A stretch of DNA of 64,000 nucleotides. Source: an uncultured Rhodospirillales bacterium. Its GTDB lineage: Bacteria; Pseudomonadota; Alphaproteobacteria; Azospirillales; Azospirillaceae. The translations under genes and the position numbers were made by a program. Positions 13,346-32,268 of this stretch are shown one piece after another (the stretch's first letter is position 1; each line of letters starts with the position of its first letter). The notes beneath the pieces were generated by a model that was not told the DNA's origin, searched no databases, and worked only from the letters and a program-made list of their open reading frames with translations. The DNA is taken from the NCBI GenBank assembly GCA_903927615.1, contig CAIYNU010000017.1, forward strand, positions 62,001-126,000. Direction: 5' to 3'.

Positions 13346-15160
13346 CTAAACTAGGTAATACAATCCAGTTTCGATAGTCTTGTGATTTCTAATGCTTGCG
13401 CAATGGTCGCAGGCACTGACATCGGTGAATCGCTCGCAGGCAAAACGCACCGCCTTGAGGGTAGCAGAGTCGGCGTCGTCGCGCCCTTGCGGAAAAATAT
13501 GCTCGGGAGCATACCAATCTTGAAAATTCAGGCGGTTGATGGCCGCCAGAAAGTCTGGACGAACGCCGGCAAGGATCACTGTGATCCCAAGCTTATCAGC
13601 GTCCCGTAAAAAATGCTCGATTCGTTCCAAGCAAACAGCATCAGGATTACGAAGGCGCTTGATGCGAAGAACGATGACGCGAGTGCCCTGAGTAACTGCC
13701 CGCCGTTTGATTTCATGCAAATAGCGGTCCAGTTCAGGCGCCGCACCAAAGAATACCTCGCCTTCAAAATCGAATATGATGGTTGAAGTGCAGATGAGGT
13801 CGTTAGCCTCACGCTCGCGCACGACACGTTCAGGACTGATGACCATCTCTGTTGCCCGAAGTTTTGCCGCGCGCGGGACGAACAGCACAATCGACATCGC
13901 GACACCCACCAAGACCGAATATTCGACGCCAACGAATACCGCTGTCAAGGCGGTGATCAGCACCAGTCCGGCGTCATAGGTCGTGGCCCGAAAGGCATAG
14001 CGAATGCGTCCCGGGTCAATCAGCCGTGCCGCCGTAACCACCAACAGGCCGGCCAAGGCAGCCTTAGGGATGTACGGGGTCAACGGCCCGAACAGCAGCA
14101 GCGCCCCCGCGACGGCCCCGGCGGCGATGACTCCCGACATCCGCGTCGCCGCTCCCGCTTGAAAGTTGATCGCCGACCGTGAAAGGGAGCCCGAACCTGG
14201 CAAGCAGCGAAAGAACCCACCGACGAGATTGCCGACCCCTTCTGCTAGGCACTGTCGGTTGTAGTCTAACTCCTGGCGAGTATGGATAGCGATGGACTTT
14301 GCCACCGCCAGTGCTTCGACCAGCCCCAGAAAGGCAATGGCGAAGGCGCTGGAGGACAGTTCGGATATCCATTCGAACTTGATTTCCGGAATATGCGGTG
14401 AGGGCAGGCTGGTCGGCACCGCCCCGACCACGGCGATGGCTGCCTTGCCAACAGCGTCCGGTTGGGTCCATCCAAAAAGAAACGCTGCCCCGGCCACCAG
14501 CACCAGCGTCACCAACATATCCCATGGCGGAAGCCGGTAGACGCGCACCACCTTGCGCAGGATAAGGGCAAGCGCAACGGTCGCCACGCTGATCGCCACC
14601 GCCTTGAGATTAGGTGAATCGCCGTGAGCGAGAGTCAACCAGACTCGATTCAGGATCGTTTGGTGCGCCGTCCCGAGATCTTTGACGCCGAGAAGGTTGG
14701 AGATTTGCCCAATGGCCAGCAACAGCGCGGCACCGCCCATGAAGCCAAGAATGACGGATTCGGAAATGTAGCGCGTCAGGTCCCCCAACCTGAATACCGC
14801 AATCAGAATCTGGATGGTGCCGACCATGACGCCAAGAAGAAACATGCCCTCGGCTGCTTCGATATGCGCATCAGGATCGAAGAACGCCAGGGCGCTAAAG
14901 ACCACGAGGGAAATCGCGCTGGTCGGACCGTTGATCAAATGCGACGAGGAGCCAAGACAAGAGGCCACGGCGGTGATGATGATGGCCGAGTACAGGCCGT
15001 ACCGCGGGTCGACACCGGCTAGGAGGGCGTAGGCCATGCCTTGGGGCAAGGCGATCGCGGCGACCGTCAACCCAGCGAGGAGGTCACAGCGAGCCTGCTC
15101 CCATCGATAGGTAACGCGGAAGTTCTGGCCGATCAATCCTGCCCTAATCAGTGCAACCAT
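13346..15160 (-). CDS. SulP-family anion permease with STAS domain
   Basis: A 604-residue inner-membrane transporter of the SLC26/SulP family, which carries sulfate, bicarbonate or other anions. The signature LTVAAIALPQGMAYALLAGVDP lies near residue 30 and about 12 hydrophobic helices extend to about 420. The cytoplasmic STAS domain (about 440-560) follows, with an unusual Cys/His-rich tail (FTDVSACDHCASIRNHK). The substrate cannot be fixed from sequence; the neighbouring sulfate-binding protein makes sulfate plausible. A truncated second sulP copy lies at 16801-17007. An 8-base inverted repeat is present in its upstream region (GACACCGC/GCGGTGTC near 15190-15210). Confidence 0.92.
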   Translation of the reverse strand: MVALIRAGLIGQNFRVTYRWEQARCDLLAGLTVAAIALPQGMAYALLAGVDPRYGLYSAIIITAVASCLGSSSHLINGPTSAISLVVFSALAFFDPDAHIEAAEGMFLLGVMVGTIQILIAVFRLGDLTRYISESVILGFMGGAALLLAIGQISNLLGVKDLGTAHQTILNRVWLTLAHGDSPNLKAVAISVATVALALILRKVVRVYRLPPWDMLVTLVLVAGAAFLFGWTQPDAVGKAAIAVVGAVPTSLPSPHIPEIKFEWISELSSSAFAIAFLGLVEALAVAKSIAIHTRQELDYNRQCLAEGVGNLVGGFFRCLPGSGSLSRSAINFQAGAATRMSGVIAAGAVAGALLLFGPLTPYIPKAALAGLLVVTAARLIDPGRIRYAFRATTYDAGLVLITALTAVFVGVEYSVLVGVAMSIVLFVPRAAKLRATEMVISPERVVREREANDLICTSTIIFDFEGEVFFGAAPELDRYLHEIKRRAVTQGTRVIVLRIKRLRNPDAVCLERIEHFLRDADKLGITVILAGVRPDFLAAINRLNFQDWYAPEHIFPQGRDDADSATLKAVRFACERFTDVSACDHCASIRNHKTIETGLYYLV

Positions 15161-15291: not shown

Positions 15292-16755
15292 TTACTGCCG
15301 CGATGGACTGACTGGCTGATCGGCATTGGCATCAAACAGATTTTCGATTGCTTTCGGTCGCAGGTGGGCCAGCGTCAGCAGCCATCCGCCGCCAACCACC
15401 ATGTAAATGACGAAAATCCAGATCAGCAACCCGTTGGGATACTCCGGCGGAGGAAACAGGGTGCTGCCGGGAATGCCGATCACACCAATGAACGGCAGGA
15501 TCATGAAACCGCATGCCAGAACCGAGGTTACGACAGCGGTTGCGGACAACTCGCCCAGCCGATGCAGATAAGCCGGCGCGGCGAGCGAGATTAAAAAGTA
15601 GACCACGAGAAAGCCGAAGGTGCTCAGCGTGCCGAAATAGCCCTGGCTATCAAAATCGGACACCCCGAACCGGGTGGGTGCGAATCCAATCACAAGCACC
15701 AGCGTGGCGACGAGAGCAACCGCCAGATGCGGGGTTTTGTTGCGCTGGTGGGTCATGCCCAGCGCCCCGGGAGCCAACCCATGCCGCGCCATGGAATAGA
15801 GAAGGCGGGCGGTGGCGCTCATCGACGCCAGGGTGCAGGCAAAGAAACTCAGCAGGATACCAATGTTGATCAGCACCCCGAGCGAGGGCACCCCAAGTTG
15901 TTCAGAGATCAGGAGCAGAGGTGATTCGGTTTTTGCCAAATCTCCACCGGTTTGGCTAAAATATAGTACGACCACGTAGGCCATGAAAATAAACAACAAA
16001 GAGGACAAAACCAAACTATGGACCACTGAGCGGGGAATTGCTCGTAACGGGTCTTTTGCTTCTTCGCCGAGCGAGGTGGAACTTTCAAAACCGGAAAAGC
16101 CGAAGACGACCAGCACGATCCCCATCAGGACATTGCCAGGACTTGCTCCGCTTAGGGTCACCTGCTGCCAGTCAATCGCAAAGCTGGTATTGCGCCAGAT
16201 TAGAAATCCTAGTGCCAGAACCGCAATAACAGCAACGCCTTCAAAGGCCAGCATTGACTTTGCGGAGAGCTTAATGTCCCTCCATGCGAGTAATGACGCC
16301 AGAAAAATTGCGGCGGCATAGAGCAGCAACGCAGGAACCTTGATCCCGCCAGCCTCTAGCAGGCCATTACCGGTCACGACGAAGCCGCACAGGGTCGACA
16401 TCCCGGTAAAAGTATAGGCGAAGAGCAGAGCCCAGCCGCCAAGGACACCGGCGATCGGTCCGAGCCCTTTCACAATATAGCTGTAGAGTGATCCGGCCGA
16501 CGAGGACCGACGGGCAAATTGGTTAATGTTCAAGGCGACCAGCACCAGCCCGATCGTACCCAAAAGAAAGCTGAGCCAGGTAGCATTCCCGGCAGAGGCA
16601 TAAATCAATCCAAGGAGCGCTGCCGGGACAGTGGACGGGGCGATGATCGCGACCGATTGAGCAAAAACTTCGAAATAGTTCAGGCACGGACCTTTGAGGC
16701 CGGACGGGATCAGGCGCACGAGAACTTCAGCAGGTTGACCAGGCGATGTACTCAT
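15292..16755 (-). CDS. APC superfamily amino-acid permease
   Basis: A 487-residue transporter with about 12 hydrophobic helices and APC-family features: a Ser/Gly-rich TM1 unwinding region (APSTVPAALLG), FARRSSSAGSLYSYI after TM2, and the GFSGFESSTSLGEEAKDPLRAIPRSV motif in the middle. Amino acids or polyamines are the likely substrates; I cannot say which. It shares strand with sulP (131 bases downstream) and may be co-transcribed. The composition is a little richer in AT than the flanking housekeeping genes. Confidence 0.88.
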   Translation of the reverse strand: MSTSPGQPAEVLVRLIPSGLKGPCLNYFEVFAQSVAIIAPSTVPAALLGLIYASAGNATWLSFLLGTIGLVLVALNINQFARRSSSAGSLYSYIVKGLGPIAGVLGGWALLFAYTFTGMSTLCGFVVTGNGLLEAGGIKVPALLLYAAAIFLASLLAWRDIKLSAKSMLAFEGVAVIAVLALGFLIWRNTSFAIDWQQVTLSGASPGNVLMGIVLVVFGFSGFESSTSLGEEAKDPLRAIPRSVVHSLVLSSLLFIFMAYVVVLYFSQTGGDLAKTESPLLLISEQLGVPSLGVLINIGILLSFFACTLASMSATARLLYSMARHGLAPGALGMTHQRNKTPHLAVALVATLVLVIGFAPTRFGVSDFDSQGYFGTLSTFGFLVVYFLISLAAPAYLHRLGELSATAVVTSVLACGFMILPFIGVIGIPGSTLFPPPEYPNGLLIWIFVIYMVVGGGWLLTLAHLRPKAIENLFDANADQPVSPSRQ

Positions 16756-16800
16756 TTTGTGAACCCTTCTACATAAAATTTCCCTTCAGGGAGTTCTCGT

Positions 16801-17007
16801 GAGCCATATTCCGTGGGAGAATGCCGTCAGTGGTGGTATAGAGGCCGACCCGTGGGTCGGCGTCAGCGATCAGGGCATGGGCCATGCCCTGGGGCAGCGA
16901 GATCGCCGCCACGGTCAACGCCGCCGGAAAATCCCTGCCGATGGTCTTCCAGGGCAGTTGCGCACCGAAAATATGGTGCCGGACTCGGCGATACCCGCAT
17001 CGGTCAT
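16801..17007 (-). pseudogene. truncated, frameshifted second sulP gene
   Basis: From an ATG at 17007 (complement, preceded by GGGGAA) the frame reads MTDAGIAESGTIFSVRN. After a frameshift near 16958 it continues LPWKTIGRD, then FPAALTVAAISLPQGMAHAL and the DADPRVGLYT block, which is the N-terminal signature of SulP transporters. It stops matching after about 65 codons, so over 500 residues are missing. It is distinct in sequence from the intact sulP at 13346, so it is the remnant of a different paralogue and not a recent copy. Confidence 0.8.
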
Positions 17008-17062
17008 GATGTTCCCCGAAATGCCGTTGTTTGAATGATGGTAAAAGCCAATGCTGGACCGT

Positions 17063-18127
17063 TTAACGGGGCTTGGGCGTATAGACGGTATCGATGATGC
17101 CGTTGTCGGCGAAGAATTTCTGCTGCGCGTCTTCCCAGTCCCGGGCGATACTGGTCACCGGGAACAGGTTCATGGGCGGCAGAAGCGCGGCATATTTCTT
17201 CAGTATCTCGGGCTTGTAGGGCCGATAGCCGTCGCGAGCGATGATCTCTTGAGCGTCATCGCTGAACAGGTAGAGCAAGTAGGCACGTGCCAGCCGAGCC
17301 GCGTCGGCTTTGGTCAGGTTGGCATCGACCCAGGCCACGGTCGGTTCGGCCAGGATGCTCACCGGGGGATAGACGATCTCCAGATTACCTTTGGACTCGG
17401 CAACTTCGCGCAGTGCTTCGTTTTCCCAGGCCAAGTGAACATCGCCGATCTGCTCGATGGCGAAGGCGGTGCCGGCCGCGCGGGCGGCTGGCACCAGGAA
17501 AGGCGCGTGCTCGTACAACGCCTTGAGAAAGCTGCGGGCCTCTGCTTCACTGCCGCCGCGGGTAACCACCGCGCCCCAGGCCGCGAGCGCCGTAAGCTTG
17601 CCGTTGCCTGACGTCTTGGGATCGGGGGTCATGACCTCGACGCCTGGTTTGACGACATCGGGCCAGTCGCGGATATCGTGGGGATTGCCATGCCGGACCA
17701 CGAAGACGATGGTCGACGTGTAGGGGTGCGAGTTGTTGGGCAGGCGCCCGGCCCAGCCATTGGCGAGCAAGCCGCGCTTATGCAATGCTTCAACGTCAGA
17801 TGGCAGTCCGAGCGTCACTACGTCGGCCTTCAGTTCTCCCGACACAACCTGACGGGCCTGTCGAGACGAGCCACCATGGGATTGGTGAATCTCGACGGAA
17901 GGGCCGCCGTCCTTAAGGGTGCGAGCCTGGAAGTGAGGATTGATGTCCTTGTACAACTCCCGAGTCGGATCATAGGAAACGTTCAGAAGTTGTATCCGTG
18001 CCGAGCTTTCGCTATTTTTCGCCACAATTAGGGTGAGGCCCAGGGCCGCTGCCACCAATGCGCCGACGTTGAGCCAGGACACCGAAGCAAACCACGAGCC
18101 CGCGTTTCGCCAGGAAAACGTCGCCAT
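17063..18127 (-). CDS. sulfate ABC transporter periplasmic substrate-binding protein
   Basis: A 354-residue Sbp/CysP-type binding protein. The start at 18127 is preceded by a GAGGGG ribosome site; the frame extends 16 codons further without support. A signal-anchor helix is at about 20-38, then LLNVSYDPTRELYKDIN, SHGGSSRQARQVVSG, ADVVTLGLPSDVEAL and TPDPKTSGNGKLTALAAWG, all characteristic of the sulfate/thiosulfate binding family. No cysT, cysW or cysA permease genes are beside it, so it either pairs with a transporter elsewhere or is an orphan left by rearrangement; the adjacent sulP remnant supports the latter. Confidence 0.88.
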   Translation of the reverse strand: MATFSWRNAGSWFASVSWLNVGALVAAALGLTLIVAKNSESSARIQLLNVSYDPTRELYKDINPHFQARTLKDGGPSVEIHQSHGGSSRQARQVVSGELKADVVTLGLPSDVEALHKRGLLANGWAGRLPNNSHPYTSTIVFVVRHGNPHDIRDWPDVVKPGVEVMTPDPKTSGNGKLTALAAWGAVVTRGGSEAEARSFLKALYEHAPFLVPAARAAGTAFAIEQIGDVHLAWENEALREVAESKGNLEIVYPPVSILAEPTVAWVDANLTKADAARLARAYLLYLFSDDAQEIIARDGYRPYKPEILKKYAALLPPMNLFPVTSIARDWEDAQQKFFADNGIIDTVYTPKPR

Positions 18128-18219
18128 TGCCCCCCCTCTGCCTGGGATATCAGGAAGCCAGCAAGGGCCCCCCAAAACCGCAGACGTTTATGTGAAATAC
18201 CAAAGCGTACACCACTTGA

Positions 18220-18248
18220 TCGATAGGATATGTTTTCTCTGCTGTCAA
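18220..18248 (-). promoter_or_regulatory. sigma-70-type promoter for the sulfate-binding protein
   Basis: On the minus strand a perfect -35 TTGACA (18243-18248) is followed after 17 bases by TATCGA (18220-18225). It sits about 95 bases upstream of the chosen start at 18127. The -35 is consensus, the -10 only fair. Confidence 0.5.
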
Positions 18249-18592
18249 CCGCAAGTGTAAAGAGGTAAATGCCAAAATGGCTTGGGCCCGTTTTTGATGG
18301 CCGCCGCGATCACCGCTCGGAATCCAGGCCGATAAATCACAGTCGCTGTACGGGAAATGCCAAACGTTGGACGCAGAAGTAAAACAAATTACCCGTGTTC
18401 AACGCTGAGTTCCGAGCCGTGATGGCTTGCCCCTTGGTCGCGACTGGGAATGCTGCAAAAAGACCGGGGTCGAGCCCTCGCGCATGGAGGGGTAGTTACT
18501 GTCAAATGTCGCGGAAAAGTACAAGTATCATCTATTATGAAATGAAAAAACATATTATATAGCAACGAATTATAGTACAACGCGCAGATGTT
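18249..18592. other. intergenic stretch with AT-rich end
   Basis: No gene is seen here. Positions 18520-18592 are strikingly AT-rich for this genome and contain A6CATATT (18545-18556), a 12-mer that recurs at 24212-24223 upstream of the pseudo-ATPase gene. The AT-rich end runs directly into the metK remnant and may be its old promoter region. Confidence 0.4.
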
Positions 18593-18977
18593 TCCGAAGC
18601 TCATCCCGATTAGGTCGGTGAGCGCATTTCCGCCCTCATCGTCGATCTGGTTCCGGGCGCGGCCCCCGACGCTCGAGTCGGCGCGGAAACCCGGTGTCTG
18701 ACCAACCTGATCGTGCCGGCGGGCAAGGTGCGTGGTCCGGCGTTGGTCACGCCCGACCGGCTCGAAGCCGTGGCGCGCCACGCGGTCAAAGACGTCGGCT
18801 GCGAGCGGGACGGTTTCCATTGGGAAAACGCCGAAGTTGAGGTCCCCGTCCATTCCCGGTCGGCCGACATCGCAGTCGGTGTCGACGCCGGCGCTGCTGC
18901 TTGGCCCCGACGCCAGGCGCAAGGCCACTCTGCGATCCGAGAATGGCAAGCGGGTGGGCGTGACCATGCATCAGTGA
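18593..18977 (+). pseudogene. metK: metK (S-adenosylmethionine synthetase) remnant
   Basis: The frame reads SEAHPD then TAG where MetK has SEGHPDK, continues VGERISALIVDL, then ARVGAETRCLTNLIVPAGKV, RGPALVTPDRLEAVARHAVK, DVGCERDGFHWEN and HSRSADIAVGVDA, a continuous match to alphaproteobacterial MetK. In another frame (18894-18977) it resumes LGPDARRKATLRSENGKRVG and ends. The start codon is missing, lysine is replaced by amber, about 50 codons are deleted in the middle, and the last half of the gene is gone. This is a dead copy; an essential metK must exist elsewhere. Confidence 0.85.
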
Positions 18978-18981
18978 GGGG

Positions 18982-19014
18982 GATTCACGGCGGCCGAAGA
19001 GGCCGCCGTGAATC
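18982..19014. terminator. perfect 14-base hairpin after metK remnant
   Basis: GATTCACGGCGGCC and its exact complement flank a 5-base loop (GAAGA). It directly follows the end of the metK remnant and faces the convergent acidic-protein gene. No T tract follows, so terminator function is inferred only from position and stem strength. Confidence 0.5.
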
Positions 19015-19114
19015 GACGCATGACCGCCGATGAGGGCGCCGAAGTCTCGCTCGAAGCGCCGCCGGTTTCGCCATTGGTCGCCGCGGCCGACGTCGCCTTG
19101 GGCGCGGACCGAGC

Positions 19115-19531
19115 CTAGCCCGCCGCCGGCTTGGGCTGGGGTTCGGCCGTCGGGACGGAGGCGTCGCCGGACTCGCCGTCGTCGTCTTCCGCGTCCTCGG
19201 TGGAAGAGCGGCGCTTGGCCCGTCGGGCCCCGGACTTGGCGATGGCAGAGTCAAAGCCGCTTTCCGCGCCGTCTTCGAGGCCGCGGCGGACGATGCTGTC
19301 CTGGGGCAACAACTCGACCAGGAAGACCGCGCTGAAAACCACGCCATAGGACAGGCCAAAGGCGGTGTGGTAGACGCCGGATCGCGCGGAAGATTTGACC
19401 TTCTGGGCCGCGGCCTTGGCGGAAACGGTGGCCTTGGACGCCGCGTCGCTGAAGGGGCTGGTGGCGCTCTCGATGGCCTCCCCCAGGTTGGCCAAAGGAT
19501 CGACGCTCACGGTTGCTTCGTTGGTAGTCAT
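19115..19531 (-). CDS. small membrane-associated acidic-tailed protein of the metal locus
   Basis: The 138-residue product starts at 19531, preceded by AAAGGAGAAAG. Residues about 5-55 are Ala-rich and amphipathic (DAASKATVSAKAAAQKVKSS). Residues about 57-80 are hydrophobic (YHTAFGLSYGVVFSAVFLVE), followed by a conserved-looking LLPQDSIVRRGLEDGAESGF block. The tail is basic, then Glu/Asp-rich, then Pro-rich. I do not recognise a named family. Its location beside P-type ATPase genes, and the Gly/Ala hydrophobic segment, suggest a membrane accessory protein; that is inference. Expression is from the minus strand, away from the ExoD-domain gene. Confidence 0.7.
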   Translation of the reverse strand: MTTNEATVSVDPLANLGEAIESATSPFSDAASKATVSAKAAAQKVKSSARSGVYHTAFGLSYGVVFSAVFLVELLPQDSIVRRGLEDGAESGFDSAIAKSGARRAKRRSSTEDAEDDDGESGDASVPTAEPQPKPAAG

Positions 19532-19802
19532 GGAATCTTTCTCCTTTACCAGTCGCGCTGCAATCGACCGGGTCACGCGAACCAGCCAATTGTATTTGGG
19601 CTTTTCGTGTCGTTTCCCCAGGATTATGGGCATCGAACACATCAAGGATGGCCCTGGGGTTCAACACCCGCAAAAGGACCATCCACAAAATACCAAACCC
19701 CATCGGGATGTCATTTGTTTCGTCCGAGGTTGCGTATTCACCATGCTGTGGCTGTGATTTATTGACCTGGACTCCGAGCTGTTCAGCCAACCTCTATCCC
19801 GC

Positions 19803-19831
19803 TTGACGCGGCCCGTCGCGCCATATATCCT
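19803..19831 (+). promoter_or_regulatory. strong sigma-70-type promoter for the ExoD-domain gene
   Basis: TTGACG (19803-19808), a 17-base spacer and TATCCT (19826-19831) form a near-consensus promoter 30 bases upstream of the ATG at 19861. The rest of the 19532-19802 gap shows no gene. Confidence 0.6.
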
Positions 19832-19860
19832 ACACCCTAGTAGACATATCGAAAAAGCGG

Positions 19861-21168
19861 ATGCCTGTCAATTCCATGATCATGTCGCTGCCTATCCGCC
19901 ATCGTGTGAATTTTCAACCGCAAGGGTGCCGCGAGCAGGTTCGTGCGTTCCCAAATCACGGCGCTTGGCAGGATCTTAGGGACCCAAAATTGTCCGTTCG
20001 CTTGCGCAAGGTTCTGACGGACGCTCCCGGCAAGCAATTTTTTTCCGTCAAAGAAATCATTGCAACCCTGGAGGGGCATCGTGGCCATCCTGGATCAAGT
20101 CACGGCGCCTCGCTGGCACTGTTTTCCGCTGCGGATCTGTTCGGGGCCAACGACGTCGACGCGGTTGCAAGCCAGGTGTCCATGGCCGTCGGGGCCAGTC
20201 TGGCCACGGGCCAACCATCGATTTCCGTTCCCCGGTCGATTCTGCGGCGTCGGATTCCCAGAAACTCGCTCGCCATCCTGATCCACGGTATCGCCAATTT
20301 GATGGATTCCGCCGACGGGGTGATGCGGCAGCGCTGGAACTGGGTTTTCCACCCGATGATGAGTAAGGTGCTTGGCCTGATGATCTTTTTGCTGGGCGTG
20401 GCCAGCATGGCGCCGTTCGTCGGCGGCGGGGTACAGCACGCGGCTTCAGCCTTCCTGATGGGCATCGGCATGGCCCAGGGTGACGGGGTCGCGGTGATGA
20501 TCGGCGCGGCGGCCGGCGTTGCCGCCTTGGCCATCGCCGCTCTTGAACTGAGCAACGGCCGCCAGGTTTGGTCGAACATCAAGTCCTGGCTTTTGGACTG
20601 CGCCCGCGCGCTGGGCCTGGACGCCTTGGCCCGGTTGCTGGATCGCTGCTGCAACGGCTTGGGTGACATCATCCGCTTACGGTGGGGCCAAGTGTTGCTG
20701 GTCCTGATGTCGGCGAGCAGTCGCGCCGAATCTGAGGGGCGCCGCGCCGTCCAGTGGAGTGGTGATGGAAAACGCCCGGTTAAATTGCGGACCCTCGATG
20801 CGCGTCGCAGGGCAATTCAATCTTTGAAGGATAAACCGGAAGTGGACCTCGAGCGCTTTTACGTTTTCTCCATCGATTCGCCCTTGGACCAAACCAAGCG
20901 CAAGATTATCGCGGAGCAGATCGACCAGCACGCCGCCACCTTCGAGCGGGCGGTCACCTATAAGTGGCTGAAGCGCGGCGAGGAGCGTTTCCTTCGCCTG
21001 ACCGTGGACCCGGCGTTGATCGAGATCGTATTCCATCCCGACCGCGTCGAGTTTTACGGCGGGGCGCCGGCCTGGGCCAGGCTGCATTTCACCAGTGCTG
21101 TCCAGAACCAACTGAAGGATCGGCTGATGGACCTCCTGAAGCTCGCGGGCTTCGTGACCGCAGTCTGA
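19861..21168 (+). CDS. ExoD-domain membrane protein with extra C-terminal domain
   Basis: A 435-residue protein. Residues about 43-235 resemble ExoD (exopolysaccharide synthesis ExoD): an N-terminal LSVRLRKVL helix, GQPSISVPRSILRRRIPRNSL (118-137), a RWNWVFHP motif (158-165), then hydrophobic helices and the MGIGMAQGDGVAVMIGAAAG block (200-219). ExoD proteins are usually about 200 residues. Here a further 200 residues follow, with a helix-rich linker and a mixed alpha/beta end (ERFYVFSID, WLKRGEERFLRLTV, then a final amphipathic helix) that I cannot assign with confidence. The start could also be an internal ATG (19882). It converges with the P1B ATPase gene. Confidence 0.75.
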   Translation: MPVNSMIMSLPIRHRVNFQPQGCREQVRAFPNHGAWQDLRDPKLSVRLRKVLTDAPGKQFFSVKEIIATLEGHRGHPGSSHGASLALFSAADLFGANDVDAVASQVSMAVGASLATGQPSISVPRSILRRRIPRNSLAILIHGIANLMDSADGVMRQRWNWVFHPMMSKVLGLMIFLLGVASMAPFVGGGVQHAASAFLMGIGMAQGDGVAVMIGAAAGVAALAIAALELSNGRQVWSNIKSWLLDCARALGLDALARLLDRCCNGLGDIIRLRWGQVLLVLMSASSRAESEGRRAVQWSGDGKRPVKLRTLDARRRAIQSLKDKPEVDLERFYVFSIDSPLDQTKRKIIAEQIDQHAATFERAVTYKWLKRGEERFLRLTVDPALIEIVFHPDRVEFYGGAPAWARLHFTSAVQNQLKDRLMDLLKLAGFVTAV

Positions 21169-21199
21169 TCGCCGTCACGAGGAGAGCGCAAACGCAATA

Positions 21200-21225
21200 C
21201 CCCCGAGGAGCCCGCTCCTCGGGGG
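21200..21225. terminator. bidirectional GC-rich hairpin between convergent genes
   Basis: An 11-base perfect stem (CCCCCGAGGAG paired with CTCCTCGGGGG) and a 4-base CCCG loop lie between the 3' ends of the ExoD-domain and P1B ATPase genes. There is no T tract, but its placement fits a shared terminator. Confidence 0.65.
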
Positions 21226-21252
21226 GTCATCGTCTGTCTCGCGACAGATCGG

Positions 21253-23814
21253 TCAGAAGTCCTGCACGCCATGCTCACTCAGCAGCAGGGCCAGTTTCTC
21301 CCGTTCGGCCTGGATCTTGGCGGCTTTCCTGAGCGGCAACAGGCCGTTTGCGACCGCCGCTAAACCGCCGACCTGATTGAAAACCATGGAATGCATGACG
21401 CCAAAATTGGAGAACAGAGCGCCAGCGATGCAAACCGCATTCGTTCCTACGATCATATACCAGCTATTGCGAGTGTTGCGGTGCAGCTCGGTCGAGATGT
21501 CGCGCACCTGTAGAAGTTTTTCCAGGCTTTCTTCCATGAAGACGATCTCGGCCGTGTCTGTGGCGATACTGGAAGCGCCACGCAGAGAAATGGACACGTC
21601 CGCCTGCTTGAGTGCGATAGAGTCGTTGACGCCGTCGCCGATGAAGCACACCCGGCGGCCTTCTTCTTGCAGGGTCTTGACGTATTGGGCTTTGTCCTGG
21701 GGCAAAACTTCGGCGAAATAGCGGTCCATGCCCAACTTGCGCGCCAGCCTCTCGGTCGGACGCTGATGATCGCCGGAGATGATGGCCAAGTGCCTGGCGC
21801 CCCGCTCACGCAGGCCGGAAATCACATCCTGCGCCTCATTGCGTTCGGCGGCCCGCAGCTCCAGGGCGCCACCCAGGGCGTTGTCCACGCCCACCAGGAT
21901 CATGGAATTGCCTTCGTCGTGGACCCGTTCAACCTCGTGATCCAACTCAGGCGGCAGCTTGATGCCCTCGTGCCGGAGATAGCGGGCGCTGCCGACGCGC
22001 ACGATATGCCCGTCCACACCCACCGACACGCCGTAACCCACCGCGTATTTGGTCTCATCGGTGTCGGGCATGGGCAGGTTCAGGTGATGGAAGCGGTCCA
22101 AGATCGCTTTGGCGATGGGATGGCTGAACTTGTTCTCGGCTGCGGCCGCCCAGCTCAGTATCCGGGTTTCATCGTAGCGGTCATAGGTCAGGATGCGCCC
22201 CACTTCCGGCCGTTCGCGGGTCAGGGTGCCGGTCTTGTCGAACAGGAAGGTATCGACTTCGCGCAGGCGTTCCAGGGCACGGCCCGACTTGACCAGAATG
22301 CCCTGCTGCGCCGCCAGGTTGAGCGTCGACAGCATGGCGATGGGCGCCGCCATGCGGATTCCTGTGCCCAGGTCGCAATTGACCACAGCCACGGCCGGAT
22401 TGACACCCCGGGTCGCCAGGGTCAGGGCCCCCAGCGCCAGGGTGGGCAGAACGGCGCTGTCGGCCAGTTGCACGGCCCACGATTGGGCCTTCAGGGTATA
22501 GCCCGAGGTTTCATTGAGTATTTGGGCCAGCTTGGCTGCCGTGGTCTCCTCGCCCGCACAGGTCACGGCCACCCGCACCTTGCCGGCGATCATCGTGGTC
22601 GCTGCAAAGACCTTGTCGCCCTTTACCTTTTCCACCGGGGCGGATTCGCCGGTCAGGGCGTGCTGGTCGACCATCCCCATGCCGTCGACCACCTCGCCAT
22701 CAACGGGGACGGATTCGCCCGTGTGGATGACGATGATGTCGCCGGTCTTGATCTGGTGCAGCGAGGTTTCCACCACGGTTCCGTCGACCTCCAGCCAGAC
22801 GAAACGGGCTTGCTTACCGAACACGCTGAGCAGCATGCGCTTGGAATTCCGCTCGGTATGTTCCACGAGCTTGCGCGCCACGCTGAGCGACAGGCCGAGA
22901 ATCGACCCGGCCAGGACTTGGTTGGTGGCAAGGCAGGCCGCCACCACCACCGCGTCCAGAAGGTCCACGCCCAGGCGCTTCTCTTTGACCACCACGTCGT
23001 AGGCGCCCTGGAAGGTGGGGATAACGGAATACAACAAGACGGCGGCGCTGAGCGGCGCCAGGGCTGGCGCAATAAGGGTGGTAAAGGCGGCTAATACCAC
23101 CGCGGTTACCGACACGGGCAAATCGTAATCGACTTTCGACAGAGAGAAGTCGTCGGTCTTCGCCAGAGCGGCATCCAGCAGATCGACGATGTGACGCTTC
23201 TGTATATGTTTCTGGTTGTACTGGACCAGGACGGTGCCGGTCAGTTCCTGGATGGTGAACTTATCTACGCCGAAGGCATTGACCAAGTCGTTCTCGATGG
23301 CCTGGTGCAACGCCGCGCGGCGGCGCAGAATGGGATTTTCGAAGCGGATGCGACCGGGCATCTCGTGACGCACGACCCAGGTGGACAGGTGTGTGCCATA
23401 GCGCTGCATCTGGGTGCGGGTGGGAGTCCCCAGGCCGAAGGCTTCCGCCAGGGTGACGGGCCGCTGAGGGGGAATGGCGCCGCTGAGAGTCTGCGAAATT
23501 TCACGGAGCTGCCGGTTGATCCCTGACGCGCTGGGCGTGAAGCGAATTTCCGCCTTTCGGTCGCGCGCATCGACCACCACGCGCTCGACGAAGGGCAGCG
23601 AAAATGCACGTTCAAAGAACAGCCGAGCCGTGGCGCCCGCAGGACGGCCGGCGAAGCCTGCATCGAAAATGCGCAGCGTGCCGTGTTCAGAAACATCCAC
23701 ATGGGTAGCCGCGACCGTGACGGGATGATTCGAGCGTGTTATCAGGCTCTTAGCGCCTTCGAGGGAGGGCCGCCCTCGGCTGTTGAGATAGGACATCGCA
23801 GGTTTATGCCGCAC
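21253..23814 (-). CDS. P1B-type metal-transporting ATPase with HMA-like, CxxC-free N-terminus
   Basis: An 853-residue heavy-metal P-type ATPase with complete catalytic machinery: TGES (388-391), phosphorylated D526 in DKTGTLT, SHP (H565-P566) and GDGVND (726-731). The N-terminus has two HMA-like folds (about 45-115 and 140-225) with no CxxC; the second has the PGRIRFENPILRRR motif. The transmembrane metal-site motif is VVNCDLGTG (C480), with a single Cys and no CPC or SPC. Such atypical motifs occur in less-studied P1B subgroups, including the P1B-6 group of FezB. The transported metal is unknown. The start is GTG at 23814 or ATG at 23796; neither has a clear ribosome site. Confidence 0.9.
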   Translation of the reverse strand: MRHKPAMSYLNSRGRPSLEGAKSLITRSNHPVTVAATHVDVSEHGTLRIFDAGFAGRPAGATARLFFERAFSLPFVERVVVDARDRKAEIRFTPSASGINRQLREISQTLSGAIPPQRPVTLAEAFGLGTPTRTQMQRYGTHLSTWVVRHEMPGRIRFENPILRRRAALHQAIENDLVNAFGVDKFTIQELTGTVLVQYNQKHIQKRHIVDLLDAALAKTDDFSLSKVDYDLPVSVTAVVLAAFTTLIAPALAPLSAAVLLYSVIPTFQGAYDVVVKEKRLGVDLLDAVVVAACLATNQVLAGSILGLSLSVARKLVEHTERNSKRMLLSVFGKQARFVWLEVDGTVVETSLHQIKTGDIIVIHTGESVPVDGEVVDGMGMVDQHALTGESAPVEKVKGDKVFAATTMIAGKVRVAVTCAGEETTAAKLAQILNETSGYTLKAQSWAVQLADSAVLPTLALGALTLATRGVNPAVAVVNCDLGTGIRMAAPIAMLSTLNLAAQQGILVKSGRALERLREVDTFLFDKTGTLTRERPEVGRILTYDRYDETRILSWAAAAENKFSHPIAKAILDRFHHLNLPMPDTDETKYAVGYGVSVGVDGHIVRVGSARYLRHEGIKLPPELDHEVERVHDEGNSMILVGVDNALGGALELRAAERNEAQDVISGLRERGARHLAIISGDHQRPTERLARKLGMDRYFAEVLPQDKAQYVKTLQEEGRRVCFIGDGVNDSIALKQADVSISLRGASSIATDTAEIVFMEESLEKLLQVRDISTELHRNTRNSWYMIVGTNAVCIAGALFSNFGVMHSMVFNQVGGLAAVANGLLPLRKAAKIQAEREKLALLLSEHGVQDF

Positions 23815-23862
23815 AATTGTGAAGATGGTTCAAAGCGTCGTGCCGCCCAATCGCGGGGCTGA

Positions 23863-24153
23863 TCAGCCGCCAAGGCGCGCACGCACCTCGGCGCGCTTGG
23901 CCTTCCAGAAGCCCGTGCGCGGCGCGGCCGATGGCGGAACCTGCTTCTGGCGTCTGCGTTTCTCGGCCATCTTGTCGGTGGCGTCCTCGATCTTCCCCAC
24001 CACCAGGCCGGCGACTTTGGTATAGGCCTCCCCAATCGCCCCCACCGCCGATTGGAAGCCGCCCTTCAACCGGGAAACGGGGGAACCCGCCGTGGCGGGA
24101 TCAACGGGTCCGGCCGGCGCTGGCTGCGGGGCCTGGTCAGTGTCCGTGGTCAT
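23863..24153 (-). CDS. small basic-tailed accessory protein of the metal locus
   Basis: A 96-residue protein starting at 24153 behind AGGAGACTTG. The first 25 residues are Pro/Ala/Asp-rich. Residues about 27-62 form an amphipathic, Gly/Ala-rich helix (LKGGFQSAVGAIGEAYTKVA then GLVVGKIEDATDKMAE). The last 30 residues are strongly basic (KRRRQK, KAKRAEVRARLGG). No TM helix or known family is evident. It sits 48 bases upstream of the P1B ATPase gene on the same strand, so the two are probably co-transcribed. A membrane-curving or scaffold role would be speculation. Confidence 0.7.
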   Translation of the reverse strand: MTTDTDQAPQPAPAGPVDPATAGSPVSRLKGGFQSAVGAIGEAYTKVAGLVVGKIEDATDKMAEKRRRQKQVPPSAAPRTGFWKAKRAEVRARLGG

Positions 24154-24200
24154 GGAATCAAGTCTCCTGTCCCGGGGAGGGGGCGCGGCATTGCCCCGTC

Positions 24201-24239
24201 AGGCTAATCACAAAAAACATATTGTCAACTAGTTTTGTG
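24201..24239. promoter_or_regulatory. divergent promoter region with inverted repeat
   Basis: Between the divergent 96-residue-protein and pseudo-ATPase genes lies a 7-base inverted repeat (CACAAAA 24209-24215, TTTTGTG 24233-24239). On the minus strand TTGACA (24223-24228) and TAGCCT (24201-24206), 16 bases apart, could be a promoter for the 96-residue protein. The repeat arms bracket this -35, a good place for an operator. The A6CATATT 12-mer shared with 18545-18556 lies inside. Confidence 0.4.
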
Positions 24240-24278
24240 GGATTGTAGACTTCTGGCGCCCCTTCGGAGTAGCCCTTG

Positions 24279-26834
24279 ATGACCGATGACGCCGAGCCGG
24301 TTTCGGCCACGAACAATCCCTCTCCCACGGTCATTGGCCGGCGCAATCCCGGCGACGCGCCGGCCCGACCGGTCGGCCGGGCCGAGTGCTTGGACCTGCG
24401 CATCCAGCAGGGCCGCCTTAGCTTCACCCACCCGGCCTTCAAGGGCGAAGGTTCGGACGCCATCGTGCGGCGCTTCCTGGAAGCGGCTTTTTCCCTGTCC
24501 GAGGTGCGGGCGGTCGACATCTGCCGCGAGCGCGGGCATGTGGCCATCGAACTGACGCCACTGGCCGATCCGGCTCAGGTCTGGCCGCGCCTGGGGGGGA
24601 TGCTGCGCAACCACTTCGTCGCCGACGATTCTCGATTGGTCCGGGGCATCGCCACCATCAGCCTGGCGCCCCCGGAACCGGGCGCCAAGATTCACATCGG
24701 CAAAGTGGGGCAAAGCCTGGCGGTATTTCGCGGCAAGGAAATCACCCCCAGCGTCTTGCGCATCTCGAATCCGCTACTGCGCCGCCGCGACGTGCAGTAT
24801 CGCCTGCGGGAGAACCTGCGTTGGGTCCATGGGGTGCATGACATTCGCTCGAACCGCCTCTTTGGCAGCGCCACCGTCTTCTACGATCCCGGCGTGATCG
24901 ACACGGATACGCTGCTGCACCAGTTGAATCTGGCGTGGCCAAGTCTGATCGACGGCCCGTCTCCGCAGCGGGTGCCCTACAAGTTTTTCATCGGCGGCGG
25001 CTTGCTCGGCTTGTGCGCCACCGCGACGTTCGCCTATCCCGCTCTGCTCCCGTGGGCCACGGTGGCCGTGATCCTGTATTCCCTGCCCAACGTATACAAC
25101 GCTGCGCGAGAGCTGGCCAAAGGTAAAGTGGGTCTGTACGCGATGTTTACCGCCCGCTTGGCCCTTTTGATGGTGACGCAGCTTCCGCTGGTCTTGTCCC
25201 TGAATGTCACCCTCACCCAGATGTGGACACATTTGGCGCGAGGCCTGGCCCGGAACGCCGAGCGGCGCCTGTTTGCCGGCCAGCGGCGGCGCTTTGTGTT
25301 GGCCCGAGTGCGCGATCCCAATACCGGCACAATCAATGTGGGTGTGGATCAGCTACCGCCGGATGCCATGATCGTGTCGGAGGCGGGCGAGTACATCCCT
25401 GTGGACGGCGTCATCGTCGATGGACTTGCCGCCATCGACGAATATGTGCTGACCGGCGTTCGCTCCCTGGTGAACAAGAGCACGGGCGACACCGTTTACG
25501 CCGGCACCCAGGTGAGCGATGGCCACATTGCCGTGCGGACCATCAAGAAGGGTGGCGCTACCGCGTCGGCGGCCCTGGCGGCCTCGCTGCCCTACAGGCT
25601 CGTCGCCGATCTGCCCTCCACGGAAGAAGCCCAACGCATCGGCGACCGCAACGCCCGTTTCGCCCTGGCGGCGGCCGGCGTGGCACTGGCGGTAACCGGC
25701 ACGCCGCCCCTATCGCAGGCCATTATCCGCCCCGATTATGCCACCGCGCCGTGGCTCAGCTCGCATTTGTCGGCGCTGACCGCCATTGCCGATGGCTTGC
25801 CGCAGGGCGTGCTCCTGCGCAACCCGTCGGCGCTGGACATCCTGCCCACCGCCGATATCTTCGTTTTTGACGATGGGGTCGATTTTGATCGCAAGCACCT
25901 GACTGTCGCCCGCATCGTCGCCCCGGATGCTCTTCAGGCGAGGGAGGCGCTGGCACTTGCCGTCGCGGCGTTTGCCGGCCACGACACGGCCCGGGCGGAT
26001 GCCCTGAATCAGGCGGCGCTGTCGCTTGGCGTTTCGCACGTCCCCATTGGTTGCCGTAGCACCCGCGCCGGCGCCGTTCGCATCCGCGACAAGGCCGGGC
26101 GTCACTTCACGGTGGCGACCCACGCCTTTGCCCGGCAGCATGGGTTTACTCACTTGCCGAGTTTCCTGCCCTCGCAACTGGCGGGGGGCACCGCCGACGC
26201 CGATCTGGCTCCGGTGGTGGTCGCCCATGACCGGACTGTCGTCGGGGTGATCCTGTTCAACCGGCGTGGCCGGGGTATCGTGTCCGATACGGTCGCAGCA
26301 CTGAGGGCGCGCAACAAGCAGGCGCGCTTCCTCCATCTGTCCTCGTCGCGCCAGGACCTGGCCGAGGCGCGAACCGCCCATTTGGGTTTGGACGCGGTCT
26401 TCGGCGGCGCCGACCCTCTCGCCAAGGCTACCGCGCTGCGCAATCTCAGCCAGCGGGCCATTTGGATCGGCAAGGGCTCGGATCCCAGCGGCGCCCTGGC
26501 TCGGCAGGCCAGCGCCGTCAGCATCTCCGTCGACGGGTTGGGCCACCTGGGCGAGGACCAGGCCGATATCGTGCTGCTGCGGAGCGATCCCTTGGCGATC
26601 CTGACTGCCGACACGCTGTCGCGGCAGCACGCCGCCCGCCTGAAAGCCGACTACCGCGCGATCAATACCGCCAATGTGGCGGGCTTGGCCGGCGCCCTCT
26701 TGGCTGGATTCGGCACCATGGAGGTTAGTTTGCTGTCCCATGTCGGCACGGCGGCCGTGTATTTTTCTCGCAAGTCCGCGCTGGAGCGGGGGCCGTACCG
26801 AGCCCCGTCCCACCACGCCCGATCCACGGCGTAA
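24279..26834 (+). CDS. catalytically dead P-type ATPase paralogue (pseudo-ATPase)
   Basis: An 851-residue protein that aligns along its length with the P1B ATPase at 21253: HMA-like domains (including ISNPLLRRRDVQYRLREN), TM helices, actuator, and P and N domains. The catalytic signature motifs I could check are lost. TGES has become TGVR (392-395), DKTGT is DDGVD (531-535), the HP motif is HDTARAD, GDGVND is GKGSDP, and the membrane Cys is absent (DYATAPWLS). The frame is open, GC-rich and free of stops, so selection has kept the protein while ATP hydrolysis is very unlikely. It could be a structural or regulatory partner of the active ATPase. ATG at 24279 is preferred over TTG at 24276. Confidence 0.85.
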   Translation: MTDDAEPVSATNNPSPTVIGRRNPGDAPARPVGRAECLDLRIQQGRLSFTHPAFKGEGSDAIVRRFLEAAFSLSEVRAVDICRERGHVAIELTPLADPAQVWPRLGGMLRNHFVADDSRLVRGIATISLAPPEPGAKIHIGKVGQSLAVFRGKEITPSVLRISNPLLRRRDVQYRLRENLRWVHGVHDIRSNRLFGSATVFYDPGVIDTDTLLHQLNLAWPSLIDGPSPQRVPYKFFIGGGLLGLCATATFAYPALLPWATVAVILYSLPNVYNAARELAKGKVGLYAMFTARLALLMVTQLPLVLSLNVTLTQMWTHLARGLARNAERRLFAGQRRRFVLARVRDPNTGTINVGVDQLPPDAMIVSEAGEYIPVDGVIVDGLAAIDEYVLTGVRSLVNKSTGDTVYAGTQVSDGHIAVRTIKKGGATASAALAASLPYRLVADLPSTEEAQRIGDRNARFALAAAGVALAVTGTPPLSQAIIRPDYATAPWLSSHLSALTAIADGLPQGVLLRNPSALDILPTADIFVFDDGVDFDRKHLTVARIVAPDALQAREALALAVAAFAGHDTARADALNQAALSLGVSHVPIGCRSTRAGAVRIRDKAGRHFTVATHAFARQHGFTHLPSFLPSQLAGGTADADLAPVVVAHDRTVVGVILFNRRGRGIVSDTVAALRARNKQARFLHLSSSRQDLAEARTAHLGLDAVFGGADPLAKATALRNLSQRAIWIGKGSDPSGALARQASAVSISVDGLGHLGEDQADIVLLRSDPLAILTADTLSRQHAARLKADYRAINTANVAGLAGALLAGFGTMEVSLLSHVGTAAVYFSRKSALERGPYRAPSHHARSTA

Positions 26835-26879
26835 CGCCCATTTTTCCGCAAGCTCCAGGTCAAGACAGGGAACGAGCCA

Positions 26880-27506
26880 ATGGGAGCGTGTTGCCGTTCG
26901 TGTTCGGAAACCGCCGAAGGCATGACGGCCCGTTATCGTCGGGTGCTGACCGCCGTATTGGTCATCAACGCCATCATGTTCGTGGTCGAGAGCATCTGGA
27001 GCCTGATCGCAGGATCGACGGCGCTACAGGCCGATGCCCTGGATTTTCTGGCTGATACGTTTACCTATGGGTTGACGTTGAGCGTTCTGGATTCAGCGCC
27101 TGATGTTCGAGCGCGCGCTGCTTTGTTTAAGGGGGGCAGTCTCGGGGCAATGGCGTTCCTGGTGCTTGCTGCGGCAACCTGGCGCGCCATCGCGGCAGTT
27201 CCACCCGAACCCGAAACAATGGGGGTGATCGCGGTCCTCGCTCTGACGGCAAATTTCACCAGCGTTCTGCTGCTCTATCGATTCCGTGATGGCGATGCGA
27301 ACATGGCGTCGGTCTGGCAATGCAGCCGCAATGATGCCATCGGCAACCTCGCGGTCATCGCCGCGGCAATCGGCGTCACGGTCAGTGGGAGCGTATGGCC
27401 CGACATCGCCGTTGCGGTCGCCATGGCGGGTTTGTTTCTGGGATCGTGCCGGAAAATTTGCAGGCGGGCCTTGGGGGAGTTAGAGTCCCTTGAAATCCCT
27501 GGATAA
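26880..27506 (+). CDS. short CDF-type cation transporter
   Basis: A 208-residue inner-membrane protein with about six helices related to cation diffusion facilitators but without the C-terminal cytoplasmic domain. The start carries a CCRSC metal-binding-like motif (residues 4-8). TM2 has D55-x-x-x-D59 and TM5 has C148-x-x-x-D152 (CSRNDAIGN), which would form the transport site, with Cys replacing the usual His. Short CDF-like proteins with CSRNDA are a known variant. It lies 45 bases after the pseudo-ATPase on the same strand and is probably co-expressed, consistent with metal handling. Confidence 0.8.
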   Translation: MGACCRSCSETAEGMTARYRRVLTAVLVINAIMFVVESIWSLIAGSTALQADALDFLADTFTYGLTLSVLDSAPDVRARAALFKGGSLGAMAFLVLAAATWRAIAAVPPEPETMGVIAVLALTANFTSVLLLYRFRDGDANMASVWQCSRNDAIGNLAVIAAAIGVTVSGSVWPDIAVAVAMAGLFLGSCRKICRRALGELESLEIPG

Positions 27507-27610
27507 CCGACCGGGAGGGCCATGCCGCGTCGCTGGGGTCACCAAGGCCACGTGTCGTCCGGTGCCTTGGAACAACGCCTCGATGGCCGGGTCTTCGTCG
27601 GCCCTCCATC

Positions 27611-27720
27611 GCCACGGCAGTCGTGATCCTTGCGCGACCAGTGGCATCGGACTGGGTATCGCGGAGGCGCTCTGGCCGCGGGTGGCTGCAACGTGTGATG
27701 CTCAACGGCCAAGGCGACGC
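27611..27720 (+). pseudogene. 3-hydroxybutyrate dehydrogenase-like SDR N-terminal remnant
   Basis: Pieces of the Rossmann N-terminus of a short-chain dehydrogenase are legible across several frames: TAVV, then ATSGIGLGIAEA (the TGxxxGIG loop), then LAAGGCNV, then MLNGQGD. This order matches 3-hydroxybutyrate dehydrogenases. At least three small indels separate the pieces, and nothing follows the hairpin at 27707. The flanks of the 27507-27917 gap show no intact gene. Confidence 0.65.
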
Positions 27721-27734
27721 TTGTCGCCTTGGCC
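27707..27734. other. perfect 12-base hairpin at the end of the SDR remnant
   Basis: GGCCAAGGCGAC and its exact complement flank a 4-base loop (GCTT). The stem begins inside the last recognisable codons of the SDR remnant. There is no T tract. A similar strong hairpin ends the metK remnant at 18982. Confidence 0.55.
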
Positions 27735-27807
27735 GACTGATGGGGCAGGGGCGGGAACCCCAGACCGTCAGTTGAACGGCGACATCGGAGATATATACCA
27801 ATATTGT

Positions 27808-27905
27808 GATGTAAGAATACCGGCTGGGACCTCAAGGTCGCGCCCGGGGCCCGGATCGTGCCCGAGCCGACGCCCGAGGAGCTGGCCGCGTTGCGCCGCA
27901 AATAA
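27808..27905 (+). pseudogene. 3' end of an unidentified gene
   Basis: After a TGA the frame reads GWDLKVAPGARIVPEPTPEE and then LAALRRK and TAA, with codon use typical of this genome, ending 13 bases before the enoyl-CoA hydratase start. The 5' part is replaced by an AT-rich junction (27790-27815). It looks like the tail of a deleted gene once upstream in the same operon; I cannot identify it. Confidence 0.45.
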
Positions 27906-27917
27906 GGAGACCGTGAC

Positions 27918-28703
27918 ATGACCGATTCGCCCTTGCTGTTGCGTGACGACGCCGACGGCGTCGCGACCCTGACCCTGAACCGGCCCCAGGCGCGCAATGC
28001 CCTGTCCCAGGGTCTGCTGGAGGCGTTGGGGACGGCGCTGGCCGATCTGGCCACCGACCAAGGCGTGCGCGTGGTTGTGCTGGCCGGCGCCGGTCCCGCC
28101 TTTTGCGCCGGCCACGATCTCAAGGAACTGCGGGCGGCGGGCTACCAGCGCGGCTACACCGAATCCCTCTTCGCCGCCTGCGCCGAGGTCATGACCGCGA
28201 TCGTGCGCCTGCCTAAACCGGTGATCGCCCGGGTCCACGGCATCGCTACTGCCGCCGGTTGTCAGTTGGTGGCCAGTTGTGACCTGGCGGTGACGGCCGA
28301 CGATGCCCGCTTCGCCACGCCCGGCGTCAATATCGGCCTGTTCTGCTCGACGCCGATGGTCGCCCTATCCCGCGCCGTCGCCCCCAAACAGGCCATGCAG
28401 ATGCTGCTGACCGGCGATCTGATCGACGCGCCCACCGCCCTTCGCTTCGGTCTCGTCAACGAACTGGTGCCGGCCGCGGATCTGGTGGCGCGCACCGCCG
28501 CCCTGGCGGGCCAGATCGCCGCCAAATCGCCCCTGACCCTGGCCATGGGCAAGGAGGCCTTCTACCGGCAGGCCGAACTGTCCCTGGACCAAGCCTATGC
28601 CTACACCCGTGAGGTCATGGTGCGGAACCTGGAAGCCCACGACGCCCGGGAAGGCATCGACGCCTTCATCGACAAGCGGGCGCCGGTGTGGTGCGGGCGC
28701 TGA
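27918..28703 (+). CDS. enoyl-CoA hydratase/isomerase family protein
   Basis: A 261-residue crotonase-fold enzyme. The NRPQARNALS motif (20-29), the oxyanion-hole blocks AGPAFCAGHDLKEL and GIATAAGCQLVASCDLAV, and a GIDAFIDKRAPVW end are visible. The end is typical of the ECHDC3-like branch, which often lacks classical hydratase glutamates; the substrate is therefore uncertain. AAGGAG lies 10 bases upstream of the ATG. It is intact though flanked on both sides by gene remnants. Confidence 0.9.
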   Translation: MTDSPLLLRDDADGVATLTLNRPQARNALSQGLLEALGTALADLATDQGVRVVVLAGAGPAFCAGHDLKELRAAGYQRGYTESLFAACAEVMTAIVRLPKPVIARVHGIATAAGCQLVASCDLAVTADDARFATPGVNIGLFCSTPMVALSRAVAPKQAMQMLLTGDLIDAPTALRFGLVNELVPAADLVARTAALAGQIAAKSPLTLAMGKEAFYRQAELSLDQAYAYTREVMVRNLEAHDAREGIDAFIDKRAPVWCGR

Positions 28704-28735
28704 CCGCCGGTTCCGGTCCGGACGGTCGGGTAAAC

Positions 28736-29607
28736 GTGCGCCGGCCAGCGAGCGTGCCGGCGCGCTGTTTCTGGCGCTGGCGCCCGGCGACCATGTGGTG
28801 ATCCCGCCGGTGATGTATTGGGCATTGCGTCATTGGCTACTGACCTTCGCCACGCGCTGGGGGCTGGCGGTCGAGGTTGTGGATCCCACCGACCTGAACG
28901 CCATGCGCGTGGCGGTCGTCCCCGGGCGGACCAAGCTGGTCTGGGTGGAAACCCCGGCCAATCCGCTGTGGACGGTTTCGGACATCGCGGCGCTGGCCGA
29001 CATCGCTCACGCCGCGGGCGCCCGCCTGGCGGTGGATTCAACCGTGGCCACGCCGGTCTTGATCCGGCCGCTGGCGCTGGGTGCCGACATCGTCCTGCAT
29101 TCGGCATCCAAGTATCTGAACGGCCTTCCGACTTGGTCGCGGGGGCGCTGGTCACCGGCAGCGACGACGCGTTCTGGCAGCAAATCAAGATCAATCGGGC
29201 GCAGATGGGCGGCATCCTCGGTGCCTTCGAGGCCTGGCTGTTGCTGCGCGGCATGCGGACGCTGTTCGCCCGGGTCCCGTTGGCCTGCCGCTTGGCCCAG
29301 ACACTCGCCGAACGCCTGACGGTCCATCCCGAGATTCTGGACGTCTTGTATCCCGGGCTCCCCGGCTTTCCCGGCCACGAGACCGCGCGCCGGCAGATGG
29401 CCGGCGGCTTCGGCGCCATGCTGTCGATCCGGATGAAGGGCGGCGCGACGGCCGCCATCGCCGTTGCGGCCAGGGTCGGGCTGTGGAAACGGGCAACCTC
29501 GCTGGGCGGCGTCGGAAGCTTCATCGAGCATCGGGCCAGCGTCGAAGGCCCGACCAGCCCGGTGCCGCCGGATCTCCTGCGTCTGCCGGTGGGTGGTCGT
29601 GGCCGCC
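28736..29607 (+). pseudogene. Cys/Met-metabolism PLP enzyme, truncated and frameshifted
   Basis: The frame beginning at 28736 matches trans-sulfuration enzymes (cystathionine gamma-synthase/lyase, methionine gamma-lyase) from about a quarter into the protein: ALFLALAPGDHVVIP, WVETPANPLW, AVDSTVATPVL and the PLP lysine in SASKYLNG. One base is missing near 29125. In the next frame SDLVAGALVTGSDDAFW continues, to GVGSFIEHRASVEGPTSPVP and the end. The N-terminal quarter and the last residues are absent. A single frame later joins the downstream protease frame by chance. Confidence 0.85.
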
Positions 29608-29687
29608 GTGAAGAATTGAAACCCGTGACTTGTCTGGCTATAACAGGACGGTCGAATTGTTCTGTTCACAAAACCACCGTTGTGCCG

Positions 29688-32265: not shown

Positions 32266-32268
32266 CCC

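Follow-up and report, generated by a model that had tools for sequence, protein, structure and literature searches.

Gene content of the locus

The DNA analysed here, a stretch of 64,000 nucleotides in contig CAIYNU010000017.1 of an uncultured Rhodospirillales bacterium (hereafter, the window), contains a locus in which a P1B-like ATPase with intact catalytic motifs is encoded next to a full-length paralog that lacks them (the active and the dead ATPase, respectively), together with two small proteins, an ExoD-family membrane protein and a short transporter of the cation diffusion facilitator (CDF) family (Table 1). A preliminary description of this DNA had recognized all these genes, including the extra domain of the ExoD protein, as well as a metK remnant, and all were confirmed; the upstream genes for a SulP-family transporter, an amino-acid permease and a sulfate-binding protein (13346-18175) had been overlooked.

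Table 1. Features of the two-ATPase locus and its flanks (positions in the window)
Feature	Position	Strand	Remarks
SulP-family anion transporter	13346..15160	-	occasional member
APC-family amino-acid permease	15292..16755	-	co-conserved in the window's subgroup
Sulfate-type periplasmic binding protein	17063..18175	-	occasional member, with SulP
metK (S-adenosylmethionine synthetase) fragment	18569..18877	+	47% identical; intact metK elsewhere in the genome
Small protein 1	19115..19531	-	138 amino acids; weakly hydrophobic YGVVFSAVFLVELLP segment, charged tail; core member
ExoD-family membrane protein	19861..21168	+	C-terminal extra domain of ~107 amino acids
ExoD C-terminal domain	20827..21165	+	beta-alpha-beta4-alpha fold predicted
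Active P1B-like ATPase	21256..23814	-	853 amino acids; HMA_2 N-terminus; transmembrane helix 4 motif N-C-D-L-G-T-G-I-R; DKTGT intact
Small protein 2	23863..24153	-	96 amino acids; immediately upstream of the active ATPase; resembles family F6 (compared by eye)
Dead ATPase (pseudo-P-type ATPase)	24279..26834	+	ATG at 24279, listed open reading frame begins with TTG at 24276; full P-type fold, catalytic motifs absent; transmembrane helix 4 motif IIRPDY
Short CDF transporter	26880..27506	+	208 amino acids; Cation_efflux match at 9e-15; 46 bp past the dead ATPase
Enoyl-CoA hydratase gene	27918-28700		intact
metY-like gene	28765-29594		split between frames

The active ATPase and its inactive paralog

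In the profile search of the window proteins, the active ATPase matches TIGR01525 at 1e-123 and contains an HMA_2 domain (PF19991, residues 148-210) devoid of CxxC, and all the catalytic P-type motifs are present, namely, DKTGT (residue 526), TGE and GDGxND (GDGVND at 726). What sets this protein apart is transmembrane helix 4 (TM4), which reads AVVNCDLGTGIRMAAP at the place where the Cu/Zn pumps have CPC and carries none of the Cys/Pro motifs (CPC, SPC, TPC, CPH) of the classical P1B-1 to P1B-5 exporters. Within the membrane helices or close to them, the conserved polar residues include N479, D481, T484, R487, N792, N813 and N823. Among the active homologs, the residue preceding D481 is Cys, Ser or Ala (Cys in the window, VVNCDLGTGIR), and therefore, a thiol at this position of TM4 is not required. 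The locus defines a P1B-like subgroup whose TM4 site is oxygen/nitrogen-rich. Because this site consists of Asn, Asp, Thr and Arg rather than Cys-Pro-Cys, the substrate is probably a hard divalent cation (Mg, Ca, Mn or Fe(II)) that would be exported from the cytosol. In Methylobacterium and in Verrucomicrobiota-type loci, a gene for CorA separates the two ATPases, and four loci of Methylococcaceae or Planctomycetes have a Ca/H exchanger nearby, associations that are compatible, if weakly, with a hard cation.

The dead ATPase (852 amino acids from the TTG codon) matches E1-E2_ATPase at 2e-20, with DDGVD replacing DKTGT and with both TGES and GDGxND absent. The AlphaFold model built from this protein and 21 homologs is a confident full P-type fold (pLDDT 85.9, pTM 0.83), and its best matches in the PDB are solved P1B ATPases. 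The phosphorylation site is missing in all 37 dead copies examined. At TM4, most of these copies keep RPD[YF], with HQDW in Methylococcaceae, and nearly all retain the Asp that aligns with that of the active pump. The dead copies evolve faster than the active ATPase, the ratio of nonsynonymous to synonymous substitution rates (dN/dS) in close pairs being 0.11-0.39 and 0.03-0.23, respectively, and in those of Methylobacterium, the A and N domains are largely missing. Full-length open frames for the dead ATPase are found in more than 30 loci. Given that the dead copies form one clade, have lost the phosphorylation site throughout and evolve under purifying selection, recent decay is ruled out: judging by this conservation, the dead ATPase is a real protein and the two ATPases are an old conserved pair.

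Distribution and phylogeny

Relatives were sought with both ATPases in one pass over 84,980 species genomes, which yielded 44 loci. Beyond the window, the ATPase with the NxDLGTGIRM motif, from which one of the two search patterns (DLGTGIRM) was taken, is encoded in 42 of these. The active ATPase loci occur in Pseudomonadota, Verrucomicrobiota and Planctomycetota, and one contig carries a Bacteroidetes label. The carriers include Rhodoblastus, Azomonas, Rhodovastum, Acidocella, Hansschlegelia, Methylopila, Xanthobacter, Chenggangzhangella, Methylobacterium, several Methylococcaceae, Verrucomicrobiota and Planctomycetota. The distribution is patchy: among 385 sampled alphaproteobacterial genomes, the active ATPase is present in the window genome alone and, in more distant form, in three others, and it is absent from four congeners of the window genome.

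The first informative relative came from the plasmid pMRAD05 of Methylobacterium radiotolerans (42% identity over 90% of the active ATPase), where an ExoD protein and a homolog of small protein 1 (E 3e-16) surround the ATPase. A search of plasmids with the dead ATPase at E 1e-15 produced no match; the diverged pMRAD05 homolog, a shortened, degenerate ATPase with LLDDGVEW that adjoins CorA across the origin of the record, was found later by context.

In the phylogenetic tree, 37 dead copies form one clade and 40 active ATPases form another (SH-aLRT 99 each). The active clade is distinct from the Cu/Zn clade, so that this protein falls outside the ordinary Cu/Zn/Cd exporters, an affinity that would have spoken against the preliminary description. 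The sister group of the active clade consists of HMA_2 ATPases that have unusual TM4 motifs of other kinds (G055/G056, L049/L050), in whose loci homologs of small protein 1 and ExoD were not detected.

Two further observations pertain to these families. The two Azospirillales genomes G055 and G056 (L034-L044) encode about six P1B-like ATPases each, most with Cys-free TM4 motifs (VTPGYTMR, VSEFGYGMR); in the L034 pair, the partner ATPase has a damaged GDGxND motif (GAGIDD), and L038 has DRAGT in place of DKTGT. In the Methylococcus genomes, the active ATPase and small protein 1 occur a second time, in L075 and L079, apparently without a nearby dead partner.

Conservation of the gene neighborhood

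Co-conservation was counted in the 29 loci where the DNA on each side of the active ATPase extends for 3.5 kb or more. The counts are 28 for the dead ATPase, 28 for small protein 1 and 19 for ExoD. Within the 15 loci of the subgroup to which the window belongs, the dead ATPase, ExoD and the APC permease are present without exception, small protein 1 in 14 loci, small protein 2 in at least 9, SulP in 5 and the sulfate-binding protein in 4; the counts for the last two and the permease indicate that the window set extends upstream to 13346. ExoD was not found in the Methylococcaceae and Planctomycetes loci, where the companions of the pair are other small proteins (F4, F5, F8) or an EcsC protein. 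The pairing of the active and dead ATPases is kept across phyla, in divergent as well as tandem arrangements. Recurrence of the same set in 42 other loci is more than would be expected by chance, which supports the earlier claim of an undescribed conserved locus. The short CDF transporter is not co-conserved and was rejected as a member: the CDF query has matches in 2 of the 29 loci, in both cases to a more distant CDF encoded at another place in the locus.

Translation of small protein 1 probably starts at ATG 19531 rather than TTG 19645; the protein belongs to no Pfam family, and a scan of 28 members gave no match to DUF1490 or DUF6110 at E <= 0.1. The ExoD protein matches PF06055 over residues 45-227 (4e-21; 75.5 bits, above the gathering score of 23.8). 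Its C-terminal domain, fused in the window and in Azomonas, is encoded by a separate gene for ~107 amino acids in most relatives; sequence searches of Pfam and the PDB gave no match for this domain, and the best PDB match of the fold, PA4090 (2jpi; E 0.1), was too weak to be used for an assignment. As for the transporters, the sulfate-binding protein and SulP are found as a pair, without the ATPases, in the congener G047 (L151), and a second SulP, 77% identical, is encoded elsewhere in the window genome (L144).

A putative heteromeric pump and the alternatives

In our view, there is a roughly even chance that these genes encode a conserved membrane transport system in the form of a heteromeric P-type pump with a pseudo-ATPase subunit. 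The core of such a system would comprise the catalytically competent P1B-like ATPase, the obligatory dead paralog and small protein 1, with ExoD, the ExoD C-terminal domain and the permease as lineage-specific accessories. The dead ATPase would most likely be a non-catalytic subunit located next to the pump in the membrane, keeping the transport fold and the TM4 Asp without the need for phosphorylation, and could scaffold or gate the active pump or feed ions to it; small proteins 1 and 2 would organize the complex into a membrane patch or compartment. Conservation suggests that the dead ATPase and small protein 1 act together with the pump. By analogy with the PacL/CtpC platforms (PMC9374683) and with FezA/FezB (PMC12574912), the small proteins may organize the pump in the membrane, and the formation of a compartment is a matter of speculation. 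The complete version of this proposal, a heterocomplex with an obligatory dead P-type subunit and a hard-ligand TM4 site (NxDLGTGIR) that, together with the small proteins and ExoD, builds a cation-loaded membrane compartment or platform, is offered tentatively, as a possibility that is more doubtful than the pump itself.

Three known systems invite comparison. The mycobacterial PacL/CtpC platforms (DUF1490, DUF6110) similarly combine a P1B ATPase and a small protein featuring a membrane segment as well as a charged Ala-rich region, but small protein 1 matches neither of these families, no pseudo-ATPase is described for the PacL systems, and CtpC keeps the CPC motif (PMC9374683). In KdpFABC (P1A), the P-type ATPase likewise depends on two other subunits, a large one in the membrane and a small one; KdpA, however, is channel-like rather than a dead P-type ATPase, and the sequences are far apart. 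The third system, the ferrosome, is discussed below.

Several considerations weigh against a heteromeric pump. The partnership, the direction of transport, the substrate and any compartment are all predicted from genes and their sequences. The two ATPase genes of the window are divergently transcribed rather than joined in one operon, and the same holds for its nearest relatives. The apparent invariance of DLGTGIRM is partly due to ascertainment because this motif served as a search pattern. The pairwise distances of the active and dead ATPases correlate over 34 loci (r 0.905; 0 of 5000 permutations as high), a match that favors the pairing but, as expected for two linked genes that travelled jointly, partly reflects shared history. 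With regard to the substrate, the TM4 residues by themselves are no proof, and a search for a metal riboswitch in the window and 23 loci found none.

The most viable alternative is that the two proteins function independently, the active ATPase as a stand-alone exporter and the dead one as a sensor or regulator, that is, a cation-binding membrane receptor, with no pump complex. The divergent transcription in the window's subgroup, the faster evolution of the dead copy and the loss of much of the A and N domains in Methylobacterium are all compatible with this possibility, which we consider rather unlikely given that the pairing holds across phyla whether the genes are divergent or in tandem.

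The preliminary description proposed a system like the ferrosome (fez) or related to it. In a ferrosome-like organelle, the pump would load iron into a compartment shaped by small proteins, as FezB does with FezA, both of which, according to a review, are required for ferrosomes (PMC12574912). The broad plan is indeed the same, in that small membrane proteins go with an HMA_2-type P1B ATPase devoid of CxxC. Membership in the fez family is nevertheless not supported by the features compared. The reference P1B-6 ATPases in the tree and the motif comparison were Azospirillales proxies rather than named FezB proteins; against these, TM4 of the window protein (VVNCDLGTGIR) differs from the SC-type DYSCALKL, the HN motif typical of TM6 in P1B-6 ATPases (PMC9374683) is replaced by FNQ or TNN in the active clade (LHNGTT in the proxies), and the active and proxy clades are separate, with support of 99 and 100. 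The FezC-type DUF4405 protein, a component of Desulfovibrio-type clusters that is not essential to every ferrosome system, was not detected in the host genome at E <= 1e-3, and in 289 alphaproteobacterial genomes, no P1B-6 ATPase was found within ~1.5 kb on either side of the 30 best DUF4405 matches. The published fez loci that were compared include neither ExoD nor a pseudo-ATPase, and no link to iron was found. A ferrosome-like organelle is therefore quite improbable; a fez-like mode of operation, with a pump and small membrane proteins organizing a membrane domain or compartment, is possible by analogy.

A non-metal substrate, for example, an anion, a proton or a small organic molecule, linked to sulfur or amino-acid metabolism, would fit the invariable presence of the APC permease in the window's subgroup, the proximity of SulP, the sulfate-binding protein and metK in some loci, and a TM4 site with no need for a thiol ligand; we assign it a low probability, considering that none of these sulfur genes turned up in the loci of Methylococcaceae, Planctomycetes and Methylobacterium and that the sulfate-binding protein and SulP also pair without the ATPases in a congener. 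Finally, the notion that the dead ATPase is a decaying pseudogene of a recent duplication amid unrelated neighbors, which might be prompted by the adjoining metK fragment and broken metY-like gene, was rejected and can be practically discounted in the face of more than 30 full-length open frames, the single clade, purifying selection and co-conservation.

Genomic context and origin of the module

The synteny of the genomic backbone with the congeners (G049, G047) runs to ~12.8 kb of the window and restarts at ~32.3 kb, placing the module within a variable stretch of 19 kb (12900-32300). A clean empty site was sought in the congeners and none was found, the correspondence being limited to the flanking synteny. 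This variable stretch, combined with the patchy distribution, suggests that the module was acquired horizontally.

Fragments of metK adjoin the module also in L057 (16577-16896) and L098 (8459-8548), and an intact second metK is present in L072 (13785-14984); together with the fragment in the window, these suggest that metK travelled with the module and then decayed repeatedly. The gene graveyard reported downstream is one only in part: the metY-like gene is broken, but the enoyl-CoA hydratase gene is intact. Intact homologs of both genes are located beside the module in Rhodoblastus (L055 198-2767). In the large open reading frame at 28818-31235, remnant sequence is followed by a downstream part that, by eye, looks like a papain-type (C1) cysteine peptidase with C-terminal repeats.

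Implications

The locus provides a shared context for ExoD and several small proteins of unknown function, and cultivable carriers, such as Methylococcus capsulatus, Xanthobacter, Rhodoblastus acidophilus and Azomonas macrocytogenes, are available for substrate tests. P-type pumps are usually considered to work with one catalytic ATPase chain, and a limited phrase search of the open literature for an inactive P-type ATPase turned up no paper. If the proposed partnership is real, the dead ATPase would be, as far as this search shows, the first conserved pseudo-ATPase partner in the P-type superfamily, one that has been kept across at least three phyla.

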